A stretch of 39,232 nucleotides of DNA from Chloroflexaceae bacterium (lineage in GTDB: Bacteria > Chloroflexota > Chloroflexia > Chloroflexales > Chloroflexaceae), in contig JAAURD010000019.1 of assembly GCA_012034075.1 (NCBI GenBank), forward strand, positions 1-39,232, written 5' to 3'. The notes under the pieces are model-generated. The model did not search any database, was not told the DNA's origin, and was given only the letters and a program-made list of their open reading frames with translations. Below are positions 937-34,426 of this stretch, one piece after another. The position numbers were made by a program, and so were the translations under genes. Positions within the stretch are counted from its first letter, which is position 1; each line of letters opens with the position of its first letter.

Positions 937-3711
937 ATGACCAGGATTCATGAAGTGCAGCAAGCAGGACAGGCTATCTGGTATGACAGTATCCGCCGTG
1001 CGTTGCTGGATTATGGCGAATTGCAGCGCCTGATCGATGCCGGCGTGAGTGGAGTTACATCCAACCCGACCATCTTTGAACGGGCTATGTTCGGCAGCAC
1101 CGATTATGATACCGAATTACGAAATTCTGATAAGAGTATTACACCAACGGATATCTACGAACAGTTGTTCATCAGCGACATCCAGCGGACCGCCGACCTG
1201 TTGCGCCCAGTCTATGAGCGCACCAGCGGCAACGATGGGTACGTAAGCCTGGAAGTCAGCCCCGACCTGGCCCACAACACCCAGGGCACCGTAGCCGAGG
1301 CCCGACGCCTCTATGACGCGGTCGGCCGTCCCAACGTGATGATCAAAATACCGGCCACCGCGGCAGGTATCGATGCGATTGCGCAGACCATCGCCGCCGG
1401 TATCCCAGTCAATGCCACACTGATTTTTTCGGTGGCGCAGTATGAGCCGGTTGCCAACGCCTATATGCAGGGCTTAGAAGGACTGGCGGCACAGGGCGGC
1501 GACCTGAACCAGATCGCCTCGGTTGCCTCGTTTGCTATCAGCCGCATCGATACCGCCGTAGACCGACTGTTGCAACAGCAGAGGCAGAACGACCTGCAGG
1601 GCAAGATCGCCATAGCCCAGGCAAAGGTGGCCTATGCGCGTTTTCAAGAGCTACTGCAGAGCGAACGCTGGCAACAGCTGGCGGCTCAGGGCGGGCGCGT
1701 GCAGCGCTTGCTATGGACCAGCACCGGCTGCAAAAACCCGCACTATGCCGATACGCTTTATGTCGATGCGCTGATCGACAGCGATACCGTCAATACCCTG
1801 CCACCGGTCACGCTAGGGGCATTTGAACTGCGCGGCAGTGTCGCTCCAACGCTCACCAGTGGTCTGGCCGAAGCACAGCAGCAATTGGCGGCCCTGGCAA
1901 ACAGTGGCATTGATCTGATGGCCATCACCGAGCAGTTGCAGCGGGATGAGGTCAATGTCTTGGCCGAGTCCTTTGCGGCGCTGCTCACCGGCATTGCCCA
2001 GAAGCGTGAGCGCCTGCTCGCCAATAAGCGCTCCTACCACGGCAGTCTGGGCCAGTATCAGCAGCAGGTCGATAGTGTGCTGGCCAACCTGCGGGATGAA
2101 GCAATTATCCGACGCATCTGGGCACATGAGCACACCGTATGGAAGCCCGAACCCACCGAAATCACCAACCGGCTGGGCTGGCTGCACATGCCCGACATGA
2201 TGCCCGAAGCCCTGCCCGAAATCCACGCGCTGGTCGAAGAAGTGCGTGCGGCGAGCTATACCCACGCGCTGCTGCTGGGCATGGGCGGTTCCAGCCTGGC
2301 CCCCGAAGTCTTTCGGCTCACCTTTGGCGTAAAGCCCGGCTACCTCGATCTAGCAGTCCTCGATAGCACCGATCCGGGCACGGTCTTGAGCTATGCCGAT
2401 CAGCTCGATCTTGCCCGCACGCTCTTTATTGTCTCCACCAAATCCGGCGGCACCGTCGAGACCTTTTCCTTCTTCAAGTACTTTTACAACCGCGTCGCCG
2501 AAACGCTCGGCGCCGATCAGGCCGGCGCGCATTTTGTCGCCATCACCGACCCTGGTAGCGGTCTGGTCGATACCGCTCGCACCTACAACTTCCGCAAACC
2601 TTTCTCAATGACCCGACCATTGGCGGTCGTTTCTCCGCACTGTCGCTCTTTGGCCTCGTACCCGCCGCCCTCATCGGCGTAGATGTTGCCCAATTCCTCA
2701 AACGAACCCAGGTGATGGCCGAGAACTGCGCCGCAGCCAACTGCCCGGCTGGCGGCAATAACGCCGGCGCCTGGTTGGGCGTGGTGATGGGCGAACTAGC
2801 CCTGGCCGGGCGGGATAAAGTGACTATGCTGATCTCACCGCCGCTGGCGTCGTTTGCCACCTGGGCCGAACAGCTCATCGCCGAAAGCACCGGCAAAGAG
2901 GGCAAGGGCCTTTTGCCGGTGGCCGATGAAGTTCCGTGCGATCTCTCAGTCTACGGCGCAGATCGCCTGTTTGTCTATCTGCGCCTGGAGGGTGACACCA
3001 CCTACGACAGCAACGCCGAGCTTGAGCCAGGCCGGGCATCCCGTGGTCTGGCTGCATATGCGTGATGTGTACGATCTGGGCAGTGAATTGTTCCGCTGGG
3101 AGATGGCAACCGCAATAGCCAGCCGCAGTTTGCAGATCAACCCATTTGATCAGCCCGACGTCGAGTCAGCCAAAGTGCTGGCCCGCCAGATGGTCGCCGC
3201 CTATAAGAGCGAGGGCCAGCTACCCGCGTTGACGCCCGCGCTCAGCAGCGATGGTATCACAGTCTACGGCGAGGTAACCGCCAACAGCCCCGCCGAAGCA
3301 CTCAAGCGCTTTGCAAGCCTGGCCCAGCCGGGTGATTATGTAGCAATCCAGGCCTATGTCCAGCCCACCGCCGCCATCACCGAAGCCTTGCAGCAAATGC
3401 GTCTGGCCTTGCGCAATGAGTTGCACGTCGCAACCACAGTGGGCTTTGGCCCACGCTTTTTGCACTCCACCGGGCAGCTACACAAGGGTGATCGCGGCAA
3501 CGGTCTCTTTATTCAGATTACGGCAGACAATGCCCGTGATGCCGACATCCCCGATGAAGCGGGCGCACCGGATTCGTCGATGACCTTCGGTGTGCTCGAA
3601 GCAGCGCAATCCATGGGCGACCGCCAGGCCCTGCTCGACAACCAGCGGCGCATTATTCGCTTCCACCTGCCCGCCGATGTCATCGCCGGCTTGCAGCAAT
3701 TGCAGGGGTAA
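937..3711 (+). CDS. Bifunctional transaldolase / glucose-6-phosphate isomerase, two frameshifts
   Basis: One polypeptide of about 925 residues. The N-terminal half is transaldolase: TSNPTIFE at 41-48 and the Schiff-base lysine in VMIKIPAT at K137. The C-terminal half is phosphoglucose isomerase: LLLGMGGSSLAPEVF near 445 and STKSGGTVET near 500. Together they would link the non-oxidative pentose phosphate pathway with glycolysis at fructose-6-phosphate. This fusion is known in Chloroflexota and some other bacteria. The start ATG at 937 follows an AGAGGAA-like ribosome site. The frame breaks twice. Near 2598, cgcaaacc probably should be cgcaaaacc, restoring RKTFLNDPTIGGRFSALSLF. Near 3017, removing one T from cttgag restores AELSQAGHPVVWLHMRDVYD. 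Both breaks fall in conserved PGI sequence, and the downstream frames remain well conserved, so indel errors are likelier than decay. Confidence 0.9.
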
Positions 3712-3910: not shown

Positions 3911-5239
3911 TTGAAACAACAACCGAGCAACAGCGTTATCAACAAATTGTCTCTCGCAGACAAAGCAGCCCATAATTGGTACCGCTTCGTCCTATCCTTT
4001 CCACCACACCTCGTGCGTGCGTATCTGGAACGGTTTCAGGTCACCACGGAACAGCGCGTGCTTGACCCATTTTGCGGTACCGGCACCACTATTGTTGAGT
4101 GTAAAAAGCTCGGCATCGCCAGCATCGGCATTGAAGCCAGTGCTCTGGCCCATTTTGCCGCGAGCGTCAAAATCGATTGGCTGCCCAATCCCGAACTGCT
4201 CTTGCAGGCTGCGCAACAGATCGAGACACATGTTCTTGCTCTATTCGCGCAGCAAGGCATTGAGGATGACCCGCTGTTTCGCACCGAGCGCCAAAACAAC
4301 GATACAGTATCGACCAGTCTGCGGACGCTCGATGCGGAGACAGCAGCATTGCTCTTAAAAAACGCGATCAGTCCCTTGCCATTGCATAAGGTATTGACCT
4401 TACATGATTGCCTACAGCATCACAAAGGTAAACCATATTATCGCCATCAGTTGCTGGCGCTAGCAAATGCGCTAAAATGTTCGATCAGTAATTTGCATTT
4501 CGGGCCGGAGGTCGGTGTCGGAGTAGTCAAGGATGATGCACCAGTGGTTGCGGCATGGCTTGACGAGGTGTATCGGATGACGGCTGATCTGCGGCAACTG
4601 GCAGATAGGCACGCTATACCGGCGACGATCCACCATGCCGATGCACGCGACCTCTCATCGTTTATCGCGCCACAATCAATTGACGCGGTGATCACCTCAC
4701 CGCCGTACCCGAATGAAAAAGATTACACGCGGATCACCCGATTGGAAGCGGTTTTGCTTGGTTTTATCACCAGTAAAGCCGATTTGCAGGGCTTGAAGCG
4801 CAGTCTCATCCGTTCTAATACGCGTGGTGTGTATAAAGATGATGACGACGATCGCTGGGTTGAACCGTACCCCGAAATTGTGCGGATTGCCGAAGAGATA
4901 GAGACACGGCGTATAGCTATGGGCAAAACTTCCGGATTTGAGCGTCTCTATGGCAGAGTCACAAAGCTGTATTTTGGTGGCATGATCCGACATCTTGCCA
5001 GCCTCCGCACGGTGTTGCGACCAGGGGCGCAGCTTGGCTATGTGGTTGGCGATCAGGCATCGTATCTGCGGGTCATGATCCGAACAGGGCAGATTCTGGC
5101 CGCAATTGCTGAATCACTGGGGTACGAGGTGGTCAATATTGATCTGTTTCGGACACGCCTGTCTACCGCAACCAAAGCACAACTCCGTGAAGAGGTAGTT
5201 CATTTGCGCTGGCATGGTAATTCAAAGGGCCTGAAATAG
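3911..5239 (+). CDS. DNA methyltransferase of a type II-like restriction-modification pair
   Basis: An amino-methyltransferase (N6-adenine or N4-cytosine) using S-adenosylmethionine. The SAM-binding motif I, DPFCGTGTT, is at about residues 52-60. The catalytic motif IV, TSPPY, followed by PNEKDYTR, is at about 262-274. Motif I precedes IV, as in alpha/gamma-type enzymes. About 442 residues from the TTG at 3911. An ATG at 3904 with a GGAAAGG site upstream opens another frame (MSIETTTEQQRYQQIVSRR) that stops at 3973. Joining it to the main frame near 3950 would give a natural N-terminus, so the true start may be 3904 with an indel. The partner nuclease gene begins 26 bases downstream. Target sequence unknown. 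The pair's base composition looks more AT-rich by eye than its flanks. Confidence 0.85.
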   Translation: MKQQPSNSVINKLSLADKAAHNWYRFVLSFPPHLVRAYLERFQVTTEQRVLDPFCGTGTTIVECKKLGIASIGIEASALAHFAASVKIDWLPNPELLLQAAQQIETHVLALFAQQGIEDDPLFRTERQNNDTVSTSLRTLDAETAALLLKNAISPLPLHKVLTLHDCLQHHKGKPYYRHQLLALANALKCSISNLHFGPEVGVGVVKDDAPVVAAWLDEVYRMTADLRQLADRHAIPATIHHADARDLSSFIAPQSIDAVITSPPYPNEKDYTRITRLEAVLLGFITSKADLQGLKRSLIRSNTRGVYKDDDDDRWVEPYPEIVRIAEEIETRRIAMGKTSGFERLYGRVTKLYFGGMIRHLASLRTVLRPGAQLGYVVGDQASYLRVMIRTGQILAAIAESLGYEVVNIDLFRTRLSTATKAQLREEVVHLRWHGNSKGLK

Positions 5240-5265
5240 CCGTATTTTCCCTGGAGCAATAACGC

Positions 5266-6054
5266 GTGAGCACAAGTTACAGCCAGATTATTGAGCGTCT
5301 TTTCTTCAATAGCTACACAGAAGGTGCGCGTGAAGTTCAATTTGAGCGCAGCGATATTGAGCGTGCTGCCGCTGATCTGGGTATTCCGTTGCCCAAGAAT
5401 CTAGGTGATGTTGTTTACAGTTTCCGTTATCGTGCAACGTTGCCGGAGAGTATCCGCGCGAAAGCTCCAGAAGGAGAAATCTGGATCATCCGTCCTGCGG
5501 GTCGTGCTCTGTACAAGTTTGTCGCTATTCCGGATCACCCACTCACTCCGAATGTCATATTAGCACAAAAGAAGATATCAGATGCAACACGTGGCATTGT
5601 CGTTCGGTATTCATTGAATGATGAACAGGCACTCCTGGTAAAGATTCGTTATAATCGATTGATCGACATTTTTACTGGCATAACCTGCTATTCTTTGCAA
5701 AATCATCTGCGCACCACCGTGGTTGAAATGGGACAGGTGGAAACTGACGAGGTGTACGTCGGTATTGATCGTCGTGGGGTACAATATGTTTTGCCAATAC
5801 AAGCAAAGCGAAAAACCGATAAACTGAATATTGTTCAGATAGAGCAAGACTTCGCAGTGTGTACACAGAAATTCCCCGATTTGCTGTGCCGAGCCATTGC
5901 AGCACAGTTTATCGACGACAACACAATTGTCCTCTTTGGTTTTGAACAGAATGAAGACGGTGTATCCCGTACTGATGAGAAGCATTACCGGCTTGTTGGA
6001 CCCGATGAAGTGACCGTAGATGATCTACGAGCTTATCGTGACCGATTGAACTGA
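5266..6054 (+). CDS. Putative restriction endonuclease, PD-(D/E)xK-like
   Basis: 262 residues starting at GTG 5266 behind CTGGAG, directly after the methyltransferase and in the same orientation, so probably co-transcribed. The middle of the protein contains VETDEVYVGID (about 158-168) and, eleven residues later, LPIQAKRK (about 177-184). D168 followed by Q179-x-K181 resembles the D...(D/E/Q)xK metal-binding core of restriction nucleases, with Q in place of E. The segment YNRLIDIFTG followed by CYSLQNHLRT is a conserved-looking block before the core. The pairing with the methylase makes cleavage of unmethylated foreign DNA the likely role. Recognition site and cofactor behaviour cannot be read from the sequence. 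No controller (C) protein gene was seen. Confidence 0.7.
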   Translation: MSTSYSQIIERLFFNSYTEGAREVQFERSDIERAAADLGIPLPKNLGDVVYSFRYRATLPESIRAKAPEGEIWIIRPAGRALYKFVAIPDHPLTPNVILAQKKISDATRGIVVRYSLNDEQALLVKIRYNRLIDIFTGITCYSLQNHLRTTVVEMGQVETDEVYVGIDRRGVQYVLPIQAKRKTDKLNIVQIEQDFAVCTQKFPDLLCRAIAAQFIDDNTIVLFGFEQNEDGVSRTDEKHYRLVGPDEVTVDDLRAYRDRLN

Positions 6055-9710: not shown

Positions 9711-9838
9711 GCGGTAAAGCGGTAAAGCGGTAGAGCGGTAAAGCGGTAAAGCGGTAGAGCGGTAAAGCGGTAGAGCGTTGGAGCGGTAAAGCGGTAGAGC
9801 ATTGGAACGTTGGAGCGGTAGAGCGGTAGAGCATTGGA
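9711..9838. repeat. 16-unit array of an 8-bp tandem repeat
   Basis: Exactly 16 contiguous 8-base units fill 9711-9838: GCGGTAAA (6 copies), GCGGTAGA (6), GCATTGGA (2), GCGTTGGA (1) and ACGTTGGA (1). The unit length is not a multiple of three and every frame is interrupted or low-complexity, so it is non-coding. It lies 25 bases past the M42 stop and 86 bases before the phosphofructokinase start. Confidence 0.95.
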
Positions 9839-9873
9839 GCGCAATGGGCGCTCAGATCGCTTTGCGCTTTGGG

Positions 9874-9906
9874 CTTCAACGCTTCAACGCTGAGATCGCT
9901 TCAACG
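9874..9906. repeat. Three copies of 8-bp CTTCAACG, opposite in sense to the upstream array
   Basis: CTTCAACG occurs at 9874-9881, 9882-9889 and 9899-9906. Its reverse complement CGTTGAAG differs by one base from the CGTTGGAG that runs across units of the neighbouring array. The two blocks could therefore pair in a transcript just upstream of the phosphofructokinase ribosome site. Confidence 0.8.
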
Positions 9907-9924
9907 CTTCCAGAAGGAGAACGT

Positions 9925-12173
9925 ATGACGACCCATCAGAGGCGACGTCTGGGAGTGTTAACCAGCGGTGGCGATGCGCCAGGGATGAACCCGGCGGTGC
10001 GTGCGGTGGTGCGTACCGGGTTGTATCGGGGCATGGATGTCTTTGCGATCTATGAAGGCTTGCAGGGGATGGTTGAAGGGGGCGACCTGATTCGGCAAAT
10101 GAGCTGGGGTGATGTTGGTGGGATTCTCGCCAAAGGTGGGACGATCATCGGAACGGCGCGTTCAGCCGCATTTCGTACACGCGAAGGTCGCTTGCGAGCA
10201 GCGCGGAATCTGCTGGAGCATGAGATTGATAGCCTGGTCGTGATAGGCGGCGATGGTAGCCTGACCGGGACCAATATTTTTCGCCAAGAGTGGACAGGAC
10301 TGCTAGAAGAGTTGGTGGAGCGGGGTGAGATTGACCGAGAGAGCGCTTCACGCCACCCATCGTTGTCGATTGTGGGTCTGGTTGGTTCTATTGATAATGA
10401 TATGTTTGGCACCGATATGACCATCGGCGCTGATACCGCCTTGCACCGCATCACCGAAGCTATCGACGCCATTAGCAGCACCGCCTCGAGCCATCAACGC
10501 TCGTTTGTTGTGGAGGTAATGGGTCGCAACTGCGGATATCTAGCATTAATGAGCGGTATTGCAACTGGAGCAGACTGGGTCTTTATCCCGGAATACCCAC
10601 CTGATGTGGATAACTGGGAAGATGTCATGTGCGAAGTATTGCTTCGTGGACGGGAAGTTGGACGTCGTGACAGTATTGTGATTGTCGCTGAAGGTGCTCG
10701 TGATCGCAATGGTAACCCAATTCGGAGCGATTCTATCAAGACCTTGCTTGAAGAGCGCCTGGGCGAAGATACGCGGGTTACGATTCTGGGCCATGTGCAG
10801 CGTGGTGGCTCGCCCAGTGCATTCGACCGCAATATGAGCTCGCTGCTGGGCTATGCCGCCGTCGAGGAGCTTTTGAATCCCCAGCCGGGAAGCGATTCGC
10901 AGCTGATTGGCATGCGCAACAATCGGGTGACACGGTCGCCTTTGATGTATTGTGTGGAACAGACCCATGCCGTCGCCGAGGCCATTGCCAACAAAGATTA
11001 TGAACGGGCAATGGACCTGCGGGGCAGCAGTTTTCGCGAGTCGTTTCAGATTATGCGCACGCTGGTACGTTCATTACCGCACGATCCGGTACCAGGCCAG
11101 AGACGTATGCGGCTAGCAGTGATGCATGCGGGGGCATTGGCGCCAGGAATGAACACTGCTGCCCGTGCAGCGGTACGCATTGGGTTGGACCAGGGCCATG
11201 TGATGTTGGGCGTGCGCAATGGGTTTGTGGGCCTGATTGAAGGCGATATGTATGAACCCGGCTGGATGGGCGTCAGTGGGTGGGCAGCACAGGGTGGCGC
11301 CGAATTGGGCACCAACCGCAAAATCCCTTCGGGGAGTGATCTCTATGCGATTGCCCGCACGATTGAGTCACAGCAGATTGATGGCCTGCTGATGATAGGT
11401 GGCTGGCATGGGTATCAATCGGTCTACCGTCTGTTTTGTGAACGCCCCAACTTTCCCAGTTTCAATATCCCGATTGTCTGTTTACCCACCACCATCAATA
11501 ATGATCTGCCGGGATCCGATTTAAGCATTGGCGCCGATACCGCTCTGAACTCTATTATAGATGCAGTCGATAAAATCAAACAATCGGCAGTCGCAACACG
11601 GCGCTGTTTTGTGGTAGAGGTGATGGGCCGATATTGTGGGTATCTGGCGCTCATGGCTGGGCTGGCAACCGGCGCAGAACGGGTGTATATCCATGAAGAG
11701 GGTGTCACCTACGTGATATGCTGGATGATCTGGAGAACCTGAAGTATGGGTTTGAGCATAGCAAGCGGCTAGGCTTGATTATCCGCAACGAGAATGTGAA
11801 CCCGATCTACACTATTTCGTTTATGTGTGCGCTTTTAGAGGAAGAGAGCAATGATCTGTTTGAAGTGAGACAGGCTATTCTGGGGCATTTGCAGCAGGGT
11901 GGTCATCCCACCCCGTTTGATCGGATTATGGCGACACGTATGGCAAAACATTGTGTGGATTATCTCATACAGGAGTCTGATCGGGGTACCAACGGGGCAT
12001 CATTTATCGGCCTGAAAGATGGGCATACCGAATTTTTCAGCCTGGAAGACTATCCCCGCATGATGGACCAGCAGTATGAGCGGGCCAAGTCTCCATGGTG
12101 GATGAGTATGAACGATATTGTGAAGGTTTTTGCGCTGGCAGAGCCGTCGCTATCAATTGTAAAAGAACAATAA
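9925..12173 (+). CDS. Two-domain ATP-dependent 6-phosphofructokinase, animal-like, frameshifted
   Basis: Phosphorylates fructose-6-phosphate in glycolysis. About 749 residues, twice the usual bacterial size, with two PFK domains in tandem. The N-half has TSGGDAPGMN, GGDGS (about 108-112), GSIDNDMFGTDMTIGADTAL (about 154-173) and EVMGRNCGYLAL, all catalytic residues present. The C-half begins near 395 with LAVMHAGALAPGMN. It has GGWHG where GGDGS is expected and TTINND where TIDND is expected, so the ATP/Mg Asp and catalytic-base Asp are lost. This mirrors animal PFK-1, whose C-half is regulatory. ATG 9925 follows AGAAGGAGA. The frame breaks near 11710: cacctacg probably should be caccctacg, restoring GVTLRDMLDDLENLKYGF. 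It ends with a WWMSMNDIVK tail also reminiscent of animal PFK. Confidence 0.92.
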
Positions 12174-12183
12174 TCTGGGTACA

Positions 12184-12214
12184 GTGACTGTCGTTCGGCT
12201 AGAATGGCAGTCAC
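12184..12214. terminator. Hairpin between converging pfk and LPG-synthase-like gene
   Basis: GTGACTGTC (12184-12192) and GGCAGTCAC (12206-12214) form a 9-base stem with one T/G wobble and a 13-base loop. It lies 10 bases after the pfk stop and overlaps the stop codon of the converging minus-strand gene. A shared terminator is plausible, although no T-run follows. Confidence 0.45.
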
Positions 12215-13209
12215 CGTGCTGGCTCTTCCAGTGAAGCCGTTTCAGCCGGTAGCTGTCGGGCGATTTTATCGAGCGGATACCAGAATGAGACGATAAAGCC
12301 CACGATAATATGTTCGAGGGTAATCAGCAGGAAGAGCGCTGAGACGCCAAGTGCCTGCTCCTGACTGTAGAAGTAGGGTGGCGCGGTGAGCACCGCGATA
12401 AGCAGGGCATCGCGTACGCCCACGCCGGCAATCGAGATGGGCAGGATTTGCAAGATGGCGATCAGAGCCGAAACACCGATGACGAGCGACAGTGGTACAT
12501 GCACATCCAGCGCGATAAAGAGCAGCCAGAGTCGCCAGAAGGTAAAGAAAGCCGAAATAAGCGAGGCTGTACCCACAAGCAGTACCAGACGCGGATGCAG
12601 GGTGAGCGAACTGATCTGACTGTTCCAGCGCTGGAGCGATTGCTGCAAGCGGGCCGGGACGATACGTGGCAGTACCGTGGTGAGCAGCCATTGACGCGGG
12701 CCACGCACCGCCATCAGCACGGTGAGCAGGGTCAACCCCAGCCCCATGCCGGCGACAAGCACGGTTTGGAGGGCTGGATGGGGCAAGAGCTGCCCCAATG
12801 CCAGAATCCCCAGCGTGGCAAAAGCCGCCATCACCAACAGGTCACAGAGGCGGTCCAGCATCACACTGAGCAGACCAGGGGCGAGCGGGTGGCCGTGATC
12901 ACGCAGGTACCAGGCTTTAGCCAGGTCACCGGCCTGACCAGGGGTGACCGAGCCAAGGAAGATGCCCACCGTGTACAGACCCAGCAGGGTTCGCAGCGGC
13001 ATCCGGATCTCCAGGTCATGGAGCAAAAGTTGCCAGCGCCACGATTTGATCAGCAAAAATGGCGGCATGAGCAGCAGCGAGAGCAGAATAGGCCATGGGT
13101 CCGCGTTGCGCAAAATGATCCACAGCTGCTCAATATCGCTGTTGACGAGAAACAGGATCAGCAGCAGCGGCCCGATCAGTCGTAAGAGCCAGGGAAGCCA
13201 GGTACGCAT
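12211..13209 (-). CDS. LPG-synthase-TM family integral membrane protein (copy 1)
   Basis: 332 residues, ATG at 13209, with about eight hydrophobic segments along its length. It has family-like blocks KSWRWQLLL (about 54-62), GSVTPGQAGDLAKAWYLRDH (about 90-109) and GVGVRDALLI (about 260-269). This matches the flippase/lysylphosphatidylglycerol-synthase transmembrane family (UPF0104/PF03706), without the soluble aminoacyl-transfer domain, so it is not a complete MprF. It starts 6 bases after the stop of the GT2 glycosyltransferase. In archaeal AglD the same kind of membrane domain is fused to a GT2 domain, so a role in moving or presenting a polyprenyl-phosphate sugar is a reasonable inference. 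Substrate unknown. Confidence 0.82.
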   Translation of the reverse strand: MRTWLPWLLRLIGPLLLILFLVNSDIEQLWIILRNADPWPILLSLLLMPPFLLIKSWRWQLLLHDLEIRMPLRTLLGLYTVGIFLGSVTPGQAGDLAKAWYLRDHGHPLAPGLLSVMLDRLCDLLVMAAFATLGILALGQLLPHPALQTVLVAGMGLGLTLLTVLMAVRGPRQWLLTTVLPRIVPARLQQSLQRWNSQISSLTLHPRLVLLVGTASLISAFFTFWRLWLLFIALDVHVPLSLVIGVSALIAILQILPISIAGVGVRDALLIAVLTAPPYFYSQEQALGVSALFLLITLEHIIVGFIVSFWYPLDKIARQLPAETASLEEPAR

Positions 13210-14202: not shown

Positions 14203-16460
14203 TTATGTTTCGATCTGTACGGCGTTGATCATGAGACTGAGCGGACGGGTATCAACGCTGTCAGGTGTAACGTGCGCCGGTATGAAAATGGGCGCGTTGA
14301 GGCCCAGTTCGAGACGTTGCTGGCCGGCCAGCGATGCGGGTATGGGGAAACGGTAGGTGCGCCACTGGCCGCTGCTCACGGGCAGAGTCAGGTGCGTGCC
14401 AACCATGGCGGCCGGTTGGGCCGGGTTTGTGTTGGCTGCATCGGCACGTATCGTAAGCTGTAACGGCGTCGGTTCGGGTGTGCCGCCGGCCATGCGCAGG
14501 GTGAGCACGCTGCCAGTTTGCAGCGGCTCAGGCAAAGGCAACACCAGCCGTCCCTGGCCCTGCAGCCAGCGGTAGGTGACGCGATGGTTTTCGGCCAGAT
14601 CAACCGCCTCACCTGGGGAGAAGCCCTGAATATAGCCGAGGTCGAGGCCATTACCGAGCACCAGGCTGCTGGTCGGCGGGGGGCGGAGCCATTGCAATGC
14701 CAGCGCCTGCACATCTTCACTGGCACGCTCTTCGGCCGAGTTGAAGTAGGTCGCGCCAGTTCGGTCTTCTGCTGGCGGCGAGCAATATCACCACGGGCCA
14801 GCGCAATGCGCTGGGAGTCACGGTTGCCCATCAGCTCCTGGGCAGCATCATACTGTTGCTGGGCAATCAATGCAAAGGCCAGCTCAGCACGCTGATCGAC
14901 CAGACCGTTGTGCGTTTGCATTGCCTGTTCGAGTTCGGCCCTGGCACGGTCATAATCGTCAGCAGCAAACGCCTGGGCCGCCGCCGCACGATGCATCTCG
15001 GCAGTCGCGGTGCGCTGAATCAGCTCAGGATAGTTGCGATAGCTCAAGCTCAAGCCAAGAAACGCAGCCGTCATCAGCAGTGCCAGCAGACCATGCCAGC
15101 GTTGTTGCCAGAGGGTACGCAGCATGGTCATCGGATTGCTGAGCCACCATGCGCCGTAGAGGATAAGTATCAACCAGACTGGCAGCAGATAGCGCGGCTC
15201 GATATGCATAATCATCATCGCCACGATGGTATAGAGCAACCAGCAGAGCGCTAGCCAGCGAAAGGCGCCTTCCCGTCGACCGATGGGGGCTGCCAGTGCG
15301 GCTAAACCAGTAGCGGTAAAAGCGAACCAGATGAGATCACCGGCGACGCCCAGCGGCCAGGTCGCTTGCAGTGGGCGACCGTAGTAGCTTCGTTTGGTCG
15401 CCATATCCTCCAAAAACTGCGCTTTCCAGATATGCTGAAAGTGGAACCAGGCGTTGCGCCAGAGCAGCTGCCAGAAGCCAACCGGGTCGGCCTGAAACAT
15501 GCGCATGGTGTCGTTGACCGCAAAGACCTGACGTTCACCCTGGGGCATGGTTTTGAGTATCTCAACGCCCTTTTCCGGGTACTTCTCCACATGCAGCCAG
15601 AGATTGACCGGGCCGATGGTATCAACCAGGATGATCTTCTCATAGACCAGATAGTTGCGGATAGTCCATGGAACGACCATGAGCGCACAGGCAACCAGCA
15701 CGATTGCCATGGCCCGCAGGGGGATGTACGAACGCCAGCGCTCTACCAGCGATAGCGCTGGTGCCGCTGCTGATGTGTCGAGGCTACGACGGTAGCGCCG
15801 CTCTTCAAGCACCAGCCAGAGCAACACAAAGGGGGCGCCATAGAGCGTGGGTGAGCGGGCAAGGGCGCCCAGGCCCAGGGCCAGACCTGAGCCAGCCAGC
15901 AGGTACCAGCGACGCGAGTCGCGCCACCAGATCAGCAGCCAGAGGTGCAGCACCAGGAAAAAGAAGAACGTTGGTTCGCTAAAGAGATGCACAGGCAATT
16001 CCACCAGGGGGTACCAGACGGCCGTAATCGCTGCGGCGATGAGGCCAGCCCGTGGTTGGAAGAGCCGCCGGGCCAGATCATAGACCATGGGAATGGTCAG
16101 CACAATCATCACCGTTTGAGCCACACGAATAAGCCAGATACCATCGATATTGCCCAGAATAATACTGATACGGATCATCAGTGCAAAGAGAAAGACGTGC
16201 AGTGGTGGACGAATGAGCCAGAAATCATCGATGTATGCACCAGTGGTAGCAAATCGCAATGCTCGCTGATAATAGTCGCCATCGTCGGCGGGGGAGAACT
16301 GCGGCTGCAGCTGATTGACGCTGGCAAACCAGATGCGCAAAGCCGCTCCTGCGAGCATGAGCAACAGCACCGTGGCTGCGATGAACCAGCGTTGGCGACG
16401 TTCAGACCCTGGCGTCATAGCTTCTTCGGTCAGTCGGTGTGAGAGATCGTGTGTTTGCAT
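14203..16460 (-). CDS. GT39/ArnT-like membrane glycosyltransferase, frameshifted
   Basis: Multi-pass GT-C type protein of about 750 residues. After the first helix (FIAATVLLLMLAGAALRIWF) comes the acidic loop SPADDGDYYQRALRF, then RPPLHVFLFALMIR, features of PMT/ArnT-like enzymes that use polyprenyl-phosphate sugars on the outer membrane face. About ten further helices follow. A soluble C-terminal part has TPR-like helices (AAAAQAFAADDYDRARAELE) and a beta-rich segment ending ...SLMINAVQIET. The frame breaks near 14747: one missing base restores ARAYFNSAEERASEDVQALA. Start uncertain: in-frame ATGs at 16526, 16460 and 16418. A TATACT box lies at plus 16468-16473. The GT2 gene follows after 10 bases. 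Confidence 0.8.
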
Positions 16461-16577
16461 AGGGAGCAGTATACCATGGGTCTGGTGTACATCAGATAAG
16501 GGTGACGCGATTGTTTCGCTTCTCATACCAAATGGCGTTCATCGATAAAAGAGAGTCTGATTCCGTATCAGACGGGG

Positions 16578-19763: not shown

Positions 19764-20819
19764 TTACGCTTTGGTTGAGAAATCACCCACCGTAGAATCG
19801 GATGATTCGGAATCGTTTGATTGGGGCGCAGGTGGCGGCTCATGCATCAGCCAGTAATAGCAGACGGTGGCTACAGGGATGAGTAACCAGAAGTTGAGCA
19901 GGCGAAAGATAATGGCGCCGGGCACGGCCATGGCGCCCAGACCCATTTGCGAAAGCACGGCAACCAGGGCAGTTTCGACGGTACCGCCACCGCCGGGCAA
20001 CACATTGAATGTACTGGTGACGAGGGCAACCCCAAAAGCCGTCATCATCACCGGAAACGTCGTTTCGATCTGCAGGCTATGGAAGACCATGAGCATGGCA
20101 AGGCTGTGGCCACAGAGTGCCAGCAGCTGAATAAGCACCAGCAAGGCGACATCACGGCGGCGCGAGGCAACCAGTTTACGACCATTTGACAGCTCATTGA
20201 CCAATCTCCGGGCCCATGAGTCATCCCAATCACGGCGAAACCAGTGAGCGACCAGGTTGTGGATGCTCACCAGCCAGTGGGTTAATTGCTCTTCGCGACG
20301 GGTAAGAATAAAAAAGACCCCACTGATCACAAAGAGCGCAACGAATGCAGCAAGCAGACTGGCGCCACCAGTTGCCAGTTGATGAGCGGTCATAAAGATC
20401 AGACTAAAGCCAAAGGTAATGAGCATGGCGCAGATATAGCTGATCATCTCGAGCGAGGCCACCAGGGTTGCCTGACCGGTAGGGACGCCACGCCGACTGA
20501 TAATGCTGGCAAAAAAGGCGTAGCTGCCGACACCACCGGCAGGCACGGACTGGCTGATGACAATAGCAACCAGTGTGGTGGCCCAGAGACGCATGATCCC
20601 CAGGCGATAGCCCAGCGATACCAGCACCACTTGCAAGACCTGGGAGGATATCAGGTAGCTCAGCAGAATCGTGATTAACGCAATTATCAGCCAGAGGGGA
20701 TCAGCATGACTGGCGGTTTCCAGAGCTTTGAATAGCTCCTCACGATTGAGAAAAGCGACCAGCAGAATGATCAGGCTGATGATTCCACTGATAATCAGAC
20801 GCCAGTGTTGACCGCGCAT
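19764..20819 (-). CDS. LPG-synthase-TM family integral membrane protein (copy 2)
   Basis: 351 residues, ATG 20819, mostly hydrophobic with about eight helices. Family-like features: SQSVPAGGVGSYAFFASIIS (about 88-107), the GG/SYAF block that marks YbhN/UPF0104 proteins, and NVLPGGGGTVETALVAVL (about 274-291). It is distinct in sequence from copies 1 and 3, so these are old paralogs rather than recent duplicates. A Ser/Asp-rich hydrophilic tail of about 25 residues ends the protein. The acylphosphatase gene lies 127 bases upstream, past a hairpin, so it may be transcribed alone. Function unknown; possibly lipid or glycolipid transport. Confidence 0.8.
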   Translation of the reverse strand: MRGQHWRLIISGIISLIILLVAFLNREELFKALETASHADPLWLIIALITILLSYLISSQVLQVVLVSLGYRLGIMRLWATTLVAIVISQSVPAGGVGSYAFFASIISRRGVPTGQATLVASLEMISYICAMLITFGFSLIFMTAHQLATGGASLLAAFVALFVISGVFFILTRREEQLTHWLVSIHNLVAHWFRRDWDDSWARRLVNELSNGRKLVASRRRDVALLVLIQLLALCGHSLAMLMVFHSLQIETTFPVMMTAFGVALVTSTFNVLPGGGGTVETALVAVLSQMGLGAMAVPGAIIFRLLNFWLLIPVATVCYYWLMHEPPPAPQSNDSESSDSTVGDFSTKA

Positions 20820-24685: not shown

Positions 24686-25975
24686 TCAGCGGTGTGATGC
24701 CAGGACTTCAGCAGCAACGCGCTGTCCGAGTTCAACCGCAAAGTTTGTGCCACGGTCCCATGGGTACACCTGACTCATACTGGCCCAGTACAGACCGGGC
24801 AGCGGTGTCGCCAATGGTGGAATGGCCTGGCTATGATTGAGACCAACAATGGGTTGTGCATAGGGGACGCGGTGCAGCCATGTTGCCCGAATCCAATCAG
24901 CTTGAAAGTGTGGGTTGAACTGCGGTAGTACCGCGATAAACTGTTCGACCAGTTGTTCCATGCTCATCTGAAACGCAGGATGATCGGCGGGGAGATAATC
25001 GCCACAGTAAATCAGATGATCGCCTCCGTAATGGCTTGGCTCAATAAAATTGGTATGCTCAACCAGTGCCAGAAAGGGAAACGTGCGTTTATCCATCCCT
25101 TGCATCCAGTAGAAATGCGGCGTGAGCTGGTGTTTCAGAGCAAGCACCAGCACGACAGCACCAAGCGAACGGAGTTGCAACAATCGATCAAGGTATGTCT
25201 CTGGGAGCTGTGGCGCCAGACGGGCCAGCAGACGCGGTGAACCAGTGGCAATAATGCGGTCGTAGTGTTGTTCACCGGCGGGACTCTGGAGGTGCCAGCC
25301 AGTCTGTTGGGCCTGGAGCTGATGAACTGGCGTCTGTAATCGCACACTGACGCCATGCTGTTCGACTGCTGCGACCAGTGCATCGACAAACCCCTGGAAA
25401 CCGCCGACAAAATAGCCGAGCTTGAATGAACGAGCACGGAAGCGTGCCCAGAGCCAGGCCATATTTACATCATAGGCATACGGGCCAAATTTGCCTTCGA
25501 GGAGTGGGCGAATAATCGAGCGATAACTGCCCGGTCCCATCCAGCGCAATGACCATTCGGCGGCGGTATGTCCTTCGAGACGTTGCCAATCGTTGTAGAC
25601 AAACTTGAGAAAGGCCACTACCAGACCAAAGCGCAGCCGTTCAAGTGGCGGTATCGCTGGGAATCGCAACACATTGGAAGGGCCATCAATCGGATAGAGC
25701 CGCCCTTGCCACCACTGGGCAGTCACCGGCTGACGAAAGAACAGCTGGTCCTGATAGCCTATCTGCGCCACCAATCCCCGAATAGCGGTGTCGGTCTCGA
25801 AGAGATGATGATAAAAGCGTTCGAGCGGCCATTCCCAGCGCTCATCACGGAAACCCGAAGCCAGGCCCCCCGCTTCGGGTGCAGCCTCATACACCGTTAC
25901 GGCATGACCGGCACGAGCCAAATCATAGGCAGCAGCAAGACCCGCAATACCGGCCCCAATAATAGCGATTTTCAC
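24686..25975 (-). CDS. FAD-dependent amine oxidase/UDP-galactopyranose mutase-like oxidoreductase
   Basis: 429 residues. The N-terminal FAD dinucleotide fold is IAIIGAGIAGLAAAYDLARA, then TVYEAAPEAGGLASGFRDER, the GG motif of the amine oxidase/protoporphyrinogen oxidase/UGM superfamily. ERFYHHLF near 52-59 and the C-terminal LPGLYWASMSQVYPWDRGTN close the FAD site. The substrate is not determinable; this subgroup often occurs with polysaccharide or lipid genes. Start GTG 25975 overlaps the TGA of the upstream membrane protein gene in GTGA, a sign of translational coupling. A substrate delivered by or for the LPG-TM protein is a possible but unproven link. Confidence 0.82.
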   Translation of the reverse strand: MKIAIIGAGIAGLAAAYDLARAGHAVTVYEAAPEAGGLASGFRDERWEWPLERFYHHLFETDTAIRGLVAQIGYQDQLFFRQPVTAQWWQGRLYPIDGPSNVLRFPAIPPLERLRFGLVVAFLKFVYNDWQRLEGHTAAEWSLRWMGPGSYRSIIRPLLEGKFGPYAYDVNMAWLWARFRARSFKLGYFVGGFQGFVDALVAAVEQHGVSVRLQTPVHQLQAQQTGWHLQSPAGEQHYDRIIATGSPRLLARLAPQLPETYLDRLLQLRSLGAVVLVLALKHQLTPHFYWMQGMDKRTFPFLALVEHTNFIEPSHYGGDHLIYCGDYLPADHPAFQMSMEQLVEQFIAVLPQFNPHFQADWIRATWLHRVPYAQPIVGLNHSQAIPPLATPLPGLYWASMSQVYPWDRGTNFAVELGQRVAAEVLASHR

Positions 25976-27057
25976 AGGGCTGTACTCCTGGCCGCATCGG
26001 TGGGTTCTGTTTCACCCTCATCCTGGCGACTGGGTATGCTCGTGGTTGCTGCTGGCTCGGTTTCTAGCGCATCAATATCGATTGCGGCAGCGCGTTCAAT
26101 ATCCTGCCAACTCAGGCTCTCACGCAGCATATAATAGGCCCCCAGCAAGGTAATGGGTAACCAGAGGGTGGCGTGCAAGACAATCACATAACTACTGGCA
26201 ATTGCCTGCCCCAATCCGGCACGGGTGAGGATAAAGATACCAGGTGCATCAAACACACCAATATGACCTGGTGTTGAGGGAATGGTCGTAAAGAGATTGA
26301 CCACAGCCGCCATGAGCATGAGCACCGGAAAGGGAATGTTGAGCGCAAAGGCATGCATCACGAACCAGTAGGTGCATGTTTCAACCAGCCAGATCAGACA
26401 GGACAGGCCAAAGATCAGCGCAATGGTTGACGGCTTGCGTAAGGCCATCAGGCCGGTAATAACATTATTGAGCATGCACTGAGCCGGTGAGCGCCAACGC
26501 TCTGGTACAAACCGATTGATCATCCAGCCAGAAAAGGAACTGAGTGTCTTTGGTTGGGCAACAATCGCCAGTATTACCAGCAGAACGACCCCAAAAGCCA
26601 TACTCAAGAAGAGCGCCAGACCAGTGAGTTCGGGTGGCAGTGGCGCAGAGGGAAGCGCAATACCGATAAAGAGCAACAGGGCCAGTCCATCAAACAGACG
26701 CTCTAATATGACCGTTGCCAGCGAGGCGCTCATGGCGATGCCTTCTTTGCGGCGCAGCACATAACTCCGCAGCAGTTCGCCAGCACGGGCCGGGTAAATA
26801 TTGTTGCCCATATAGCCAATGGTTACCAGGGGAAAGAGACGTTGAATCGACACCGGTCGAATAGGCTGCAACATCAATTGCCAGCGCCAGCTGCGGATCC
26901 ATGTAGCAACCCCATAGACACACACCGCTGGAATCAGCCAGCCATACTGCGCATTAGCCAGGTGGTGCAAAAACTCGTGCAGATTCAGGCCATAGAGTGC
27001 AATCGTGAGAAAGAACAGGCTGATGATCAGCCCCAACCAGAATTTCCAGTTACGCAA
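25972..27057 (-). CDS. LPG-synthase-TM family integral membrane protein (copy 3)
   Basis: 361 residues. Starts at TTG 27057, seven bases after AAGGAG; no ATG is available nearby in frame. Family blocks: RSWRWQLMLQPIRPVS (about 55-70), GYMGNNIYPARAGELLRSYV (about 79-98) and TTIPSTPGHIGVFDAPGIFI (about 258-277). About eight helices and an acidic, Thr-rich C-terminal tail of about 45 residues. This copy is closer to the glycosyltransferase-associated UPF0104 proteins than copy 2, judging by the NNIYPARAGE block. Its last codon overlaps the oxidoreductase start. Likely a lipid or glycolipid transporter; substrate unknown. Confidence 0.82.
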   Translation of the reverse strand: MRNWKFWLGLIISLFFLTIALYGLNLHEFLHHLANAQYGWLIPAVCVYGVATWIRSWRWQLMLQPIRPVSIQRLFPLVTIGYMGNNIYPARAGELLRSYVLRRKEGIAMSASLATVILERLFDGLALLLFIGIALPSAPLPPELTGLALFLSMAFGVVLLVILAIVAQPKTLSSFSGWMINRFVPERWRSPAQCMLNNVITGLMALRKPSTIALIFGLSCLIWLVETCTYWFVMHAFALNIPFPVLMLMAAVVNLFTTIPSTPGHIGVFDAPGIFILTRAGLGQAIASSYVIVLHATLWLPITLLGAYYMLRESLSWQDIERAAAIDIDALETEPAATTSIPSRQDEGETEPTDAARSTAL

Positions 27058-31806: not shown

Positions 31807-33390
31807 TTATGAGGTATGACGCCCCAATATCTGGCGTAACAACAGACGTTCTTCGCTCCCAAACGCGCCGAGCCACCAGAGCGCTATGCCATAGACGGGC
31901 AGAGCCACCAGGGCTGTGATGAACCAACCTGGGCTGGGCAGCAACACCATTGCAAGACCCATGATCGCTGATGCGAGTGCTGGACGCCAGGAGAGATGCA
32001 ACAACGGCGGCTGCAATCCTTCCCGGCGCAGCAGCGGCCAGAAGACCGCCAGCAACACCACTTCTGAGAGGATCGTAATGACACTGGCAGCATACAGCCC
32101 AAACAACGGAATAAAGAGTATATTAAGCGTTAGATTAACGAATGCCCCGATCAAAAACGCACGGGTAATCGCATGTTGCTGATTGATCGCAATCAGCACA
32201 TATTGCAACAACCCATTGACAAACGACAGCGGCAAAAACCAGGCCAGCAGTGCAAGCACTTCGGCCGAAATCGGCAGATAATCAGCCGCATGACGCCGCG
32301 CAAAAAAGCTGACGAGATCGGGAGCCAGAATACATATCCCCATGGCTATGGGAAAAGCCAGCAGTAACATCACTTTAAGCGTCTGGTTCTGGGTCTGCAC
32401 CAGCGCTGAACGTTCACCCGCTGCCCGCCGTGACAGCATGGGAAACAGCGCAAAGGTGATGACCGGTGGAACAATCAACGCGATCCGCAAAATTTGATAG
32501 GGCATGGCATACTGTTGCAAGAGCAGGTCGCCCTGACCACCCCCATACGCCTTGATCAAAAAGGTATCGAAGCGGAAAAAGACCATATTCAACAGATTGT
32601 TGAGCATTAACGGTAACGCTATGGGCAACAATGACCAGATCAAAGCGCTATTCCAGCAGAGAGAGGGTCGAAAAAAGCGCCGCAGCTGCAGCACAAAATA
32701 CATCAGCGCGGTGCAGGTCGAGACCGCAACCGCCGACCAGGCCAGGCCCACAATGCCAAACCCCAGCAGCAATAGACCAATGCGTACCATCATGCTGATG
32801 ACGGCGGTCATCATCTCGATCATTGCCGGCACTTCCATTTGTTCGGCCGCATGAAAGAGCGCCGTGACCGAACCGGAATAGGCTGCTGGTATCAGGGTGA
32901 GCAATAAAATCCAGATGACCTGTTGCCCCACCGGGCTAATCGCTTCGCCCATCTGCAACTGGGCCAGCAGCTGATAGTTGCCAATAAACGATGCAGCGAC
33001 CGGCACCGCTACCAGCACCAGCACCAGACGCAGCGCCAGCGTAGCCCCAAAGAGACGTGGGCCATTGTGTGGTTCACGGGCAACCTCACGGGTGAGCAGA
33101 ATACCCAGCCCAAACTCGGTGAATGTCCCTAGATACTGGGCGACCAGCAGGGCAGCCAGCGTATACGGGCCGATCTCAGCAGCCGGCAGCATGCTGTACA
33201 GCACCATCAGAAAGACAAATTCGAGGCCCAGCACCACAAAGCGGGTGATAAAGGGCACGGTGCTGTTTTTCAGCAGCCGCCGCGCCGTATTCTGCTGATC
33301 GTCACGGTAAAAACGGCGCCAGAGGAGGATTGCAACAAGGCTGCCCAGCAACACCACGCCAAGGATCAGCAGCAACATCGGGATGAGCAT
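31807..33390 (-). CDS. Polysaccharide flippase, Wzx/MOP superfamily
   Basis: 527 residues with about fourteen hydrophobic segments and the oligosaccharide flippase layout: STVPFITRFVVLGLEFVFLM near the first full helix, then EFGLGILLTREVAR and SVTALFHAAEQMEVPAMIEM. Such proteins move lipid-linked glycans across the membrane. Unusually, an extra N-terminal helix and basic stretch (LLWRRFYRDDQQ) come before the conserved core. ATG 33390 is 4 bases after the stop of the ComEC-like gene, so the two are co-transcribed. A T-rich tract follows shortly after the stop (minus strand, plus 31784-31797), perhaps part of a terminator. The neighbouring divergent genes also look envelope-directed. Confidence 0.85.
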   Translation of the reverse strand: MLIPMLLLILGVVLLGSLVAILLWRRFYRDDQQNTARRLLKNSTVPFITRFVVLGLEFVFLMVLYSMLPAAEIGPYTLAALLVAQYLGTFTEFGLGILLTREVAREPHNGPRLFGATLALRLVLVLVAVPVAASFIGNYQLLAQLQMGEAISPVGQQVIWILLLTLIPAAYSGSVTALFHAAEQMEVPAMIEMMTAVISMMVRIGLLLLGFGIVGLAWSAVAVSTCTALMYFVLQLRRFFRPSLCWNSALIWSLLPIALPLMLNNLLNMVFFRFDTFLIKAYGGGQGDLLLQQYAMPYQILRIALIVPPVITFALFPMLSRRAAGERSALVQTQNQTLKVMLLLAFPIAMGICILAPDLVSFFARRHAADYLPISAEVLALLAWFLPLSFVNGLLQYVLIAINQQHAITRAFLIGAFVNLTLNILFIPLFGLYAASVITILSEVVLLAVFWPLLRREGLQPPLLHLSWRPALASAIMGLAMVLLPSPGWFITALVALPVYGIALWWLGAFGSEERLLLRQILGRHTS

Positions 33391-33394
33391 AGGC

Positions 33395-34426
33395 TTACTG
33401 ACCGTGCCGTTCCGTGATCACCGTGAGATGCTGCCCATTGGTGATGCATTCAATGGTGCCGTGAAGCTCCGGGTGGTACAGGCCCGCCATACCTTGATGC
33501 ACAAAGGTCGCCCGTTCATACCATGTCATCAATACCGGATCGTCCATCTCATAGCTGTGGCTGAACAGAATCATGTGCGGTTGCCAGGCGGGCACCAGCG
33601 GGTCGAGTGGACGGCTCCAGGGATAGACCAGCGCCGTGATCGGTTCAGCCTGCGCCAGCAGTGCTTCATCGAGGGACGGGCCTGCCGCTTGGGCTAGCAC
33701 CATGCGGAACGTCCCATAGTCTAGCCGCAGCACCAGACCAGCAGTGTCACCATCGCCAGTTGCCAGCACTGTGAGCAACGCGCCATCGAGCGGTATCTGA
33801 CTGCCCGGCCAGAGCACCTGCACCGGCGTTTGTTGTTGTTGCAACAGGGCAAACCAGGCATCTTGCAATGCCTGATGGTACGACGACATGGAAGCGTGGC
33901 CACTGATCGGCGCCATCACGACCAACCCAACCTCATAATGTTCCAGCACGGCTACCTGTGCTGGCAACCGTTCCATATCACTCCGCGTCAAGATCATGAT
34001 GTCCAGGGTGCGTTGCCACGGCGACAGATAGTGTCCAAGTTGTAACACCAGATCAGATGGGTCGCTCCCACCATCAATCAACACCACGCGGCCGTCGGGT
34101 GTTTTCAGCAGCATCGCATCGCCACTGGTCTCCAGCAGCAACACATGCAACATGCCATCTGCGCGGGTTTGGTACCACATGACCACCAAGAAGAGGAGTA
34201 ACACCAGCACCAGCAGCCAGCGCCGTGAGCGTTGCTGCTTGTTGCCGCTTACAGGCTGTGCCTGATTATCGCTCAACCAGTCAATACCTTTTACATGATA
34301 CGCATCCGAATGAGCAAAACCCAGCAAATCGACCGAACACGATGGGCACCGAATGGAACCGTCACATACCCCGTTGCAATTGTTCGGTGTGTTTGCATAG
34401 CAACATACAGTATGGTATGCTATCAA
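33395..34426 (-). CDS. ComEC-derived metallo-beta-lactamase-fold protein lacking metal ligands
   Basis: Up to 343 residues. An N-terminal cytosolic segment with CPSC and FAHSDAYHVKGIDWL is followed by one membrane helix (RRWLLVLVLLLFLVVMWY), then an outside domain. The domain matches the ComEC C-terminal MBL unit: ETSGDAMLLKTPDGRVVLID, GGSDPSDLVLQLG, LDIMILTRSDMERLPAQ. Where active relatives have LTHxHxDH, this protein has LTRSDMER, so all histidines are gone. The later LTGDA-type Asp is replaced by LAQAA. It is therefore probably not a nuclease. The true start is unclear: the first 25 residues look unlike coding sequence. The flippase starts 4 bases after its stop, implying a shared role in envelope assembly. 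Confidence 0.7.
   Translation of the reverse strand: MIAYHTVCCYANTPNNCNGVCDGSIRCPSCSVDLLGFAHSDAYHVKGIDWLSDNQAQPVSGNKQQRSRRWLLVLVLLLFLVVMWYQTRADGMLHVLLLETSGDAMLLKTPDGRVVLIDGGSDPSDLVLQLGHYLSPWQRTLDIMILTRSDMERLPAQVAVLEHYEVGLVVMAPISGHASMSSYHQALQDAWFALLQQQQTPVQVLWPGSQIPLDGALLTVLATGDGDTAGLVLRLDYGTFRMVLAQAAGPSLDEALLAQAEPITALVYPWSRPLDPLVPAWQPHMILFSHSYEMDDPVLMTWYERATFVHQGMAGLYHPELHGTIECITNGQHLTVITERHGQ

Follow-up and report, generated by a model that had tools for sequence, protein, structure and literature searches.

We conclude with high confidence that the gene studied here, psi-MBL, encodes a detached and catalytically dead C-terminal domain (CTD) of ComEC, a metallo-beta-lactamase (MBL) fold that now stands as a gene of its own. 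It lies in the window, by which we mean the whole 39,232-nucleotide stretch of Chloroflexaceae DNA that was analyzed. Since a family profile search finds it in 77 of the 82 genomes of the window's order, and since dN/dS is 0.13–0.40 across twelve close pairs of copies, psi-MBL is an old, conserved core gene and not a decaying relic or a local accident. The five genomes of the order without it are MAGs that are 80–86% complete; the named records that carry it include Chloroflexus, Oscillochloris, Kouleothrix, and other Chloroflexales. Its origin and its loss of catalysis are well supported. For its function we infer, as most likely, a non-catalytic extracytoplasmic role in envelope glycan export, and we regard the full account, a severed and dead ComEC CTD serving in such a role, as evenly poised between right and wrong.

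The reading frame is stop-free and open along its entire length. We consider the TTG at 34276 a likelier start than 34426, because the initial ~50 codons are unconserved and low in GC (0.47 versus 0.59), relatives begin immediately ahead of the helix, and a purine-rich AAAAGG lies upstream of the TTG. Read from there, the protein consists of a short basic N-terminus, one hydrophobic transmembrane helix, and then the MBL domain, in agreement with the single-helix tether described in an earlier reading made from the sequence alone (hereafter the sequence-only reading). The charge is +4 before the helix and −2 after it, a positive-inside bias that is clear in the window protein and weak across the family, and the topology is probably N-in/C-out with an extracytoplasmic domain. 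The motifs read LIDGG, LTRSDMER, GLVLRLDYGTFRMVL, and YPW where GHH is expected (Table 1).

Table 1. Coordinates in the window of psi-MBL, its motifs, and the adjoining flippase gene
Feature	Position	Strand	Remark
psi-MBL, single-helix-anchored, catalytically dead ComEC C-terminal domain	33395..34276	-	293 aa from TTG 34276
psi-MBL as listed open reading frame	33395-34426	-	reaches 34426
Transmembrane signal anchor of psi-MBL	34169..34219	-	aligns to last helix of full-length ComEC
LIDGG, MBL motif I	34067..34081	-	retained, structural
LTRSDMER	33968..33991	-	former THxHxDH metal motif
A247	33686..33688	-	position of bridging aspartate D700 (LTGD motif)
PW	33617..33622	-	at site of HH of GHHGS in catalytic relatives; remaining loop deleted
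MOP-superfamily (Wzx-like) polysaccharide flippase	31807..33390	-	Pfam Polysacc_synt and MurJ-like

Scans of the window protein against Pfam and NCBIfam returned no family match, and against the MBL family Lactamase_B (PF00753) no score rose above the gathering cut-off; psi-MBL is thus an unannotated core gene family of filamentous anoxygenic phototrophs, which annotation pipelines overlook or could mislabel as related to competence. A search of the genome contigs with the window protein as a single sequence likewise gave no match, and an alignment-based search did. Among solved structures, the single sequence matches ComEC by phmmer (30bt, E = 2.5e-8; the ComEC CTD 9ic4, E = 2.2e-6), and a family profile built from 50 homologs and run against the PDB with hmmsearch matches ComEC at E = 5.8e-24 and 2.6e-22, spanning the whole domain. 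The AlphaFold2 model (mean pLDDT 89.9, pTM 0.87) finds its best solved-structure match in the nuclease domain of Moorella glycerini ComEC (9ic4; E = 1.7e-17, TM 0.69/0.74); the INTS9-INTS11 complex (8r22) matches the fold weakly. With LIDGG and other fold residues retained in the dead family, the earlier assignment to a ComEC-type MBL domain with a preserved fold stands. What psi-MBL has in common with the ComEC CTD (the C-terminus of TIGR00361; 9ic4 and 30bt) is therefore the MBL alpha-beta/beta-alpha fold, the whole-domain profile, and the preceding last helix. Unlike the CTD of ComEC/Rec2 proteins, it is not fused behind an OB fold and a Competence domain but is a separate gene, away from comEC and adjoining a flippase.

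The ComEC proteins of these bacteria are truncated in a complementary fashion. In the order, and almost throughout the class, the ComEC channel gene (PF03772) spans only ~450–600 aa. Full-length ComECs from Anaerolineae, Caldilineaceae, and Dehalococcoidia run to about 800–870 aa and include a catalytic MBL. Five channel-only ComECs that were checked contain the OB fold and the Competence domain, with the MBL absent, and seven that were aligned end exactly before the linker, last helix, and MBL. The window protein begins with the helix at which they end. In addition, the motifs PDGRLHV, LIDGGSDP, and PFWQR, along with the preceding helix, are common to psi-MBL and the CTD of L098, a full-length ComEC from Anaerolineae; the stand-alone catalytic MBLs of the class lack these motifs. 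Because of the complementary truncation and the shared motifs, the best reading of psi-MBL is as the cut-off C-terminal end of ComEC itself, comprising its last helix and the MBL. In the window genome the channel-only ComEC sits on a different contig. We suggest that in an ancestor of the class Chloroflexia the last transmembrane helix and the external MBL domain split off as a gene of their own and the domain was stripped of its metal site, while ComEC was left as an OB-fold and channel protein. On the tree, whose root is not known, a branch with support 99/99 parts all stand-alone dead copies from all catalytic ones, and the copies of psi-MBL group largely by host family; a single loss of the metal site is the simple reading and is not proven.

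Gain and loss of ComEC domains have been documented before (Pubmed Central PMC6299819), and another report puts bacterial ComECs without a C-terminal nuclease domain at nearly half, calling the handling of the second strand open (PMC8579336). In Chloroflexia the CTD has not simply been lost: across a whole order, selection has maintained a dead copy of it as a separate gene. A search of the open-access literature turned up no account of a conserved gene family made up of detached, dead ComEC CTDs.

Other ComEC-type proteins of the class fall outside this family. Stand-alone catalytic MBLs occur in two clades (L166, L167, L172–L174, and L180; L069, L070, L175, and L176). Like psi-MBL they are detached ComEC-like MBL domains; unlike psi-MBL they keep HPHADH or HPDQDH, GD, and GHHGS, lack PFWQR, and stand apart from it on the tree. 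They are candidates for the second-strand nuclease where ComEC is channel-only. Two full-length ComECs (L151 and L152) in G072, a MAG of the order that is 72% complete and whose relatives all have channel-only ComECs, were considered as in-order exceptions and rejected: their CTDs are catalytic (HDDADH) and give no match to the family profile, and their contigs in G072 are probably contamination. In a further member of the class (G127; L161:2386-4545 and L179:1-1359), a ComEC channel is fused to an MBL-like domain without HxHxDH or GHHGS. We rejected this protein as a missing link between the fused and split states; its long branch falls within the catalytic CTDs, a position that makes independent decay the probable explanation.

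The metal site was numbered on M. glycerini ComEC and aligned catalytic relatives. In the M. glycerini protein, H598, D600, D602, H603, and D700 are proven by mutation, with D600A alone lowering activity only ~5-fold (PMC12455585). According to the sequence-only reading, every metal ligand had been lost; this holds for five of the six positions and fails at the second position of HxHxDH, which is still an aspartate (D150). As that reading described, LTHxHxDH has become LTRSDMER and the LTGDA aspartate is gone. In the alignments H598 is replaced by R148, D600 is kept as D150, D602 and H603 are replaced by E152 and R153, and A247 occupies the place of D700; the HHGS loop with H725/S728 is deleted, PW269-270 remaining there. 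One of the six positions of the ComEC nuclease set (HxH/DxDH, bridging Asp, HHGS) is therefore kept, and, relative to the ComEC CTD, both the motif III and the HHGS loops are shortened. The loss is a property of the family: no more than two of the six ligands are kept in any of 53 aligned distinct homologs, D602 and D700 are lost in all 53, and the HHGS loop has been lost by deletion in 52. Since none of these homologs has an intact HxHxDH motif, the ligand loss is not a sequencing error, and the observation that would have refuted the sequence-only reading, homologs that all retain the motif, was looked for and not made. Three residues that are absent or different in catalytic relatives are near-invariant in the dead family (P269, 98%; W270, 98%; R305, 96%), and W270, R305, and Y164 are conserved replacements at the former ligand site. 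Judged by its residues, psi-MBL should be unable to hydrolyze a substrate by the MBL mechanism. With the fold kept, the catalytic residues lost, and purifying selection in force, the pseudoenzyme proposed at the outset remains the best reading.

Inactive MBL-fold proteins are documented elsewhere. INTS9 and CPSF100 are MBL pseudoenzyme subunits in which the fold was kept structurally after catalysis was lost; both are beta-CASP proteins of the eukaryotic cytosol or nucleus and have an active paralog as partner, whereas psi-MBL is membrane-tethered and has no known active partner.

The adjacency to a polysaccharide flippase, also noted in the sequence-only reading, proved to be conserved. The flippase gene begins with the ATG at 33390, 4 nt past the psi-MBL stop, and co-transcription of the two genes is very likely. 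The flippase lies directly downstream of psi-MBL at nearly all loci of family f1 and in part of f4, as would be expected of an operon containing a flippase accessory; this neighborhood recurs across nearly all Chloroflexaceae genera sampled, and in Chloroflexus the two genes overlap by −4 (ATGA). This flippase is distinct from the two MurJ-like genes of the genome, which lie elsewhere. The neighbors of psi-MBL vary in f2, f3, f6, and part of f4, where the flippase gene is found at another place in the genome. Gene order therefore does not make the link obligatory, nor is it universal, many members of the order having psi-MBL apart from the flippase. Because a flippase ortholog is present in every genome checked, including those in which it is non-adjacent, the phylogenetic profile is without power and co-occurrence cannot test the partnership; operon neighborhood alone does not show interaction.

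We suspect that the detached domain, which its helix probably anchors at the outer surface of the cytoplasmic membrane, came to serve envelope assembly as a binding or scaffold subunit without catalysis. In Chloroflexaceae, psi-MBL may act with the flippase of its operon, either docking on the flippase or holding its glycan-lipid product, and the contact could be made by the remodeled former active site, which is predicted to be lined with W, R, and H. A diverged sister clade (f13 and f10) of stand-alone MBL-like proteins without metal motifs (L065, L066, L067, L171, L177, and L178) has its genes immediately downstream of a PASTA-domain Ser/Thr kinase gene at 6 loci; the sequences have diverged far, and the branch that groups them with the Chloroflexales copies has support of 94/66. 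A more sweeping version, in which ComEC was split class-wide, the channel being kept and the severed nuclease becoming a new extracytoplasmic pseudoenzyme and an obligatory accessory of the lipid-linked glycan flippase in Chloroflexales or of the PASTA kinase in the sister lineage, would tie a former DNA-processing module to envelope biogenesis; it is tentative, and we lean against it.

The main rival holds that the dead CTD is still part of DNA uptake, partnering the channel-only ComEC in trans: it would guide DNA or keep hold of the entering strand, and a different nuclease would remove the second one. Psi-MBL is, after all, by descent the missing piece of ComEC, last helix included, and the genomes encode both a channel-only ComEC and ComEA-type helix-hairpin-helix proteins. 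The Streptococcus pneumoniae ComEC CTD also has changed metal ligands, and a role as a DNA guide has been suggested for it (PMC8579336, PMC5031224). That domain, unlike psi-MBL, is still fused to its channel, and EndA does the nicking; according to PMC8579336 its substitutions are only conservative, and we found no loop deletions reported for it. The fused, degenerate CTD of G127 (L161) is a further point in favor of a retained uptake role. Against it, none of the psi-MBL copies examined adjoins com genes (comEC or comEA), and families f5, f9, and most of f14 have a channel-only ComEC with no detectable psi-MBL. The window domain is also acidic (net −17, pI 4.8; the family median pI is 7), a weak point, since catalytic CTDs are acidic too; we accordingly set net charge aside as an uninformative sign of DNA binding. 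On balance we think continued service in uptake unlikely. In either case psi-MBL offers a concrete gene with which to ask whether a CTD contributes to uptake other than as a nuclease or has been recruited to the cell envelope.

It is also conceivable that the protein does no scaffolding and is a sensor of a soluble ligand, the former active site binding a glycan, a lipid-linked intermediate, or a nucleotide and the protein reporting the state of the envelope to a partner, the flippase here and the PASTA kinase in the sister clade. PASTA domains are sensors of muropeptides and lipid II, and in the sister clade the gene directly follows a kinase that has them; moreover, the lost ligands were replaced by the conserved W270, R305, and Y164, and not by random residues. 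Given how weakly the very diverged sister clade is joined to the Chloroflexales copies, we consider a sensor improbable.

That psi-MBL is a working enzyme, with a re-modeled metal site or a metal-free chemistry, seems very improbable. D150 is kept, aspartate occurs at that position in 34 of the 53 copies, and E152 is a conservative change; but in other copies the D150 position is occupied by V, A, L, S, or G, the loss of D602, D700, and the HHGS loop is family-wide, and no alternative conserved set of His, Asp, Glu, or Cys occurs at the former metal site among the 53 copies. A pseudogene, frameshift, or assembly error, which might be suspected in a fragmented MAG of 369 contigs with other frame-split genes in the window, is already refuted by the same loss in 53 independent homologs, complete single-contig genomes included, and by dN/dS well below 1.

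The frame-split genes appear to be those for a transaldolase/GPI-like protein, a phosphofructokinase, and a PMT-type glycosyltransferase (937-3711, 9802-12173, and 14203-16526, respectively), and they are probably MAG indel errors or pseudogenes. Between the transaldolase gene and that for 6-phosphogluconate dehydrogenase, at 3911-6054, a DNA methylase (N6_N4_Mtase) is followed by a 262-aa open reading frame without a Pfam match, possibly forming a restriction-modification pair. Finally, three LPG_synthase_TM-like membrane proteins are encoded within 15 kb among glycosyltransferases (12211-13209, 19764-20819, and 25972-27057), two of them recognized by a Pfam match and the first by sequence likeness.
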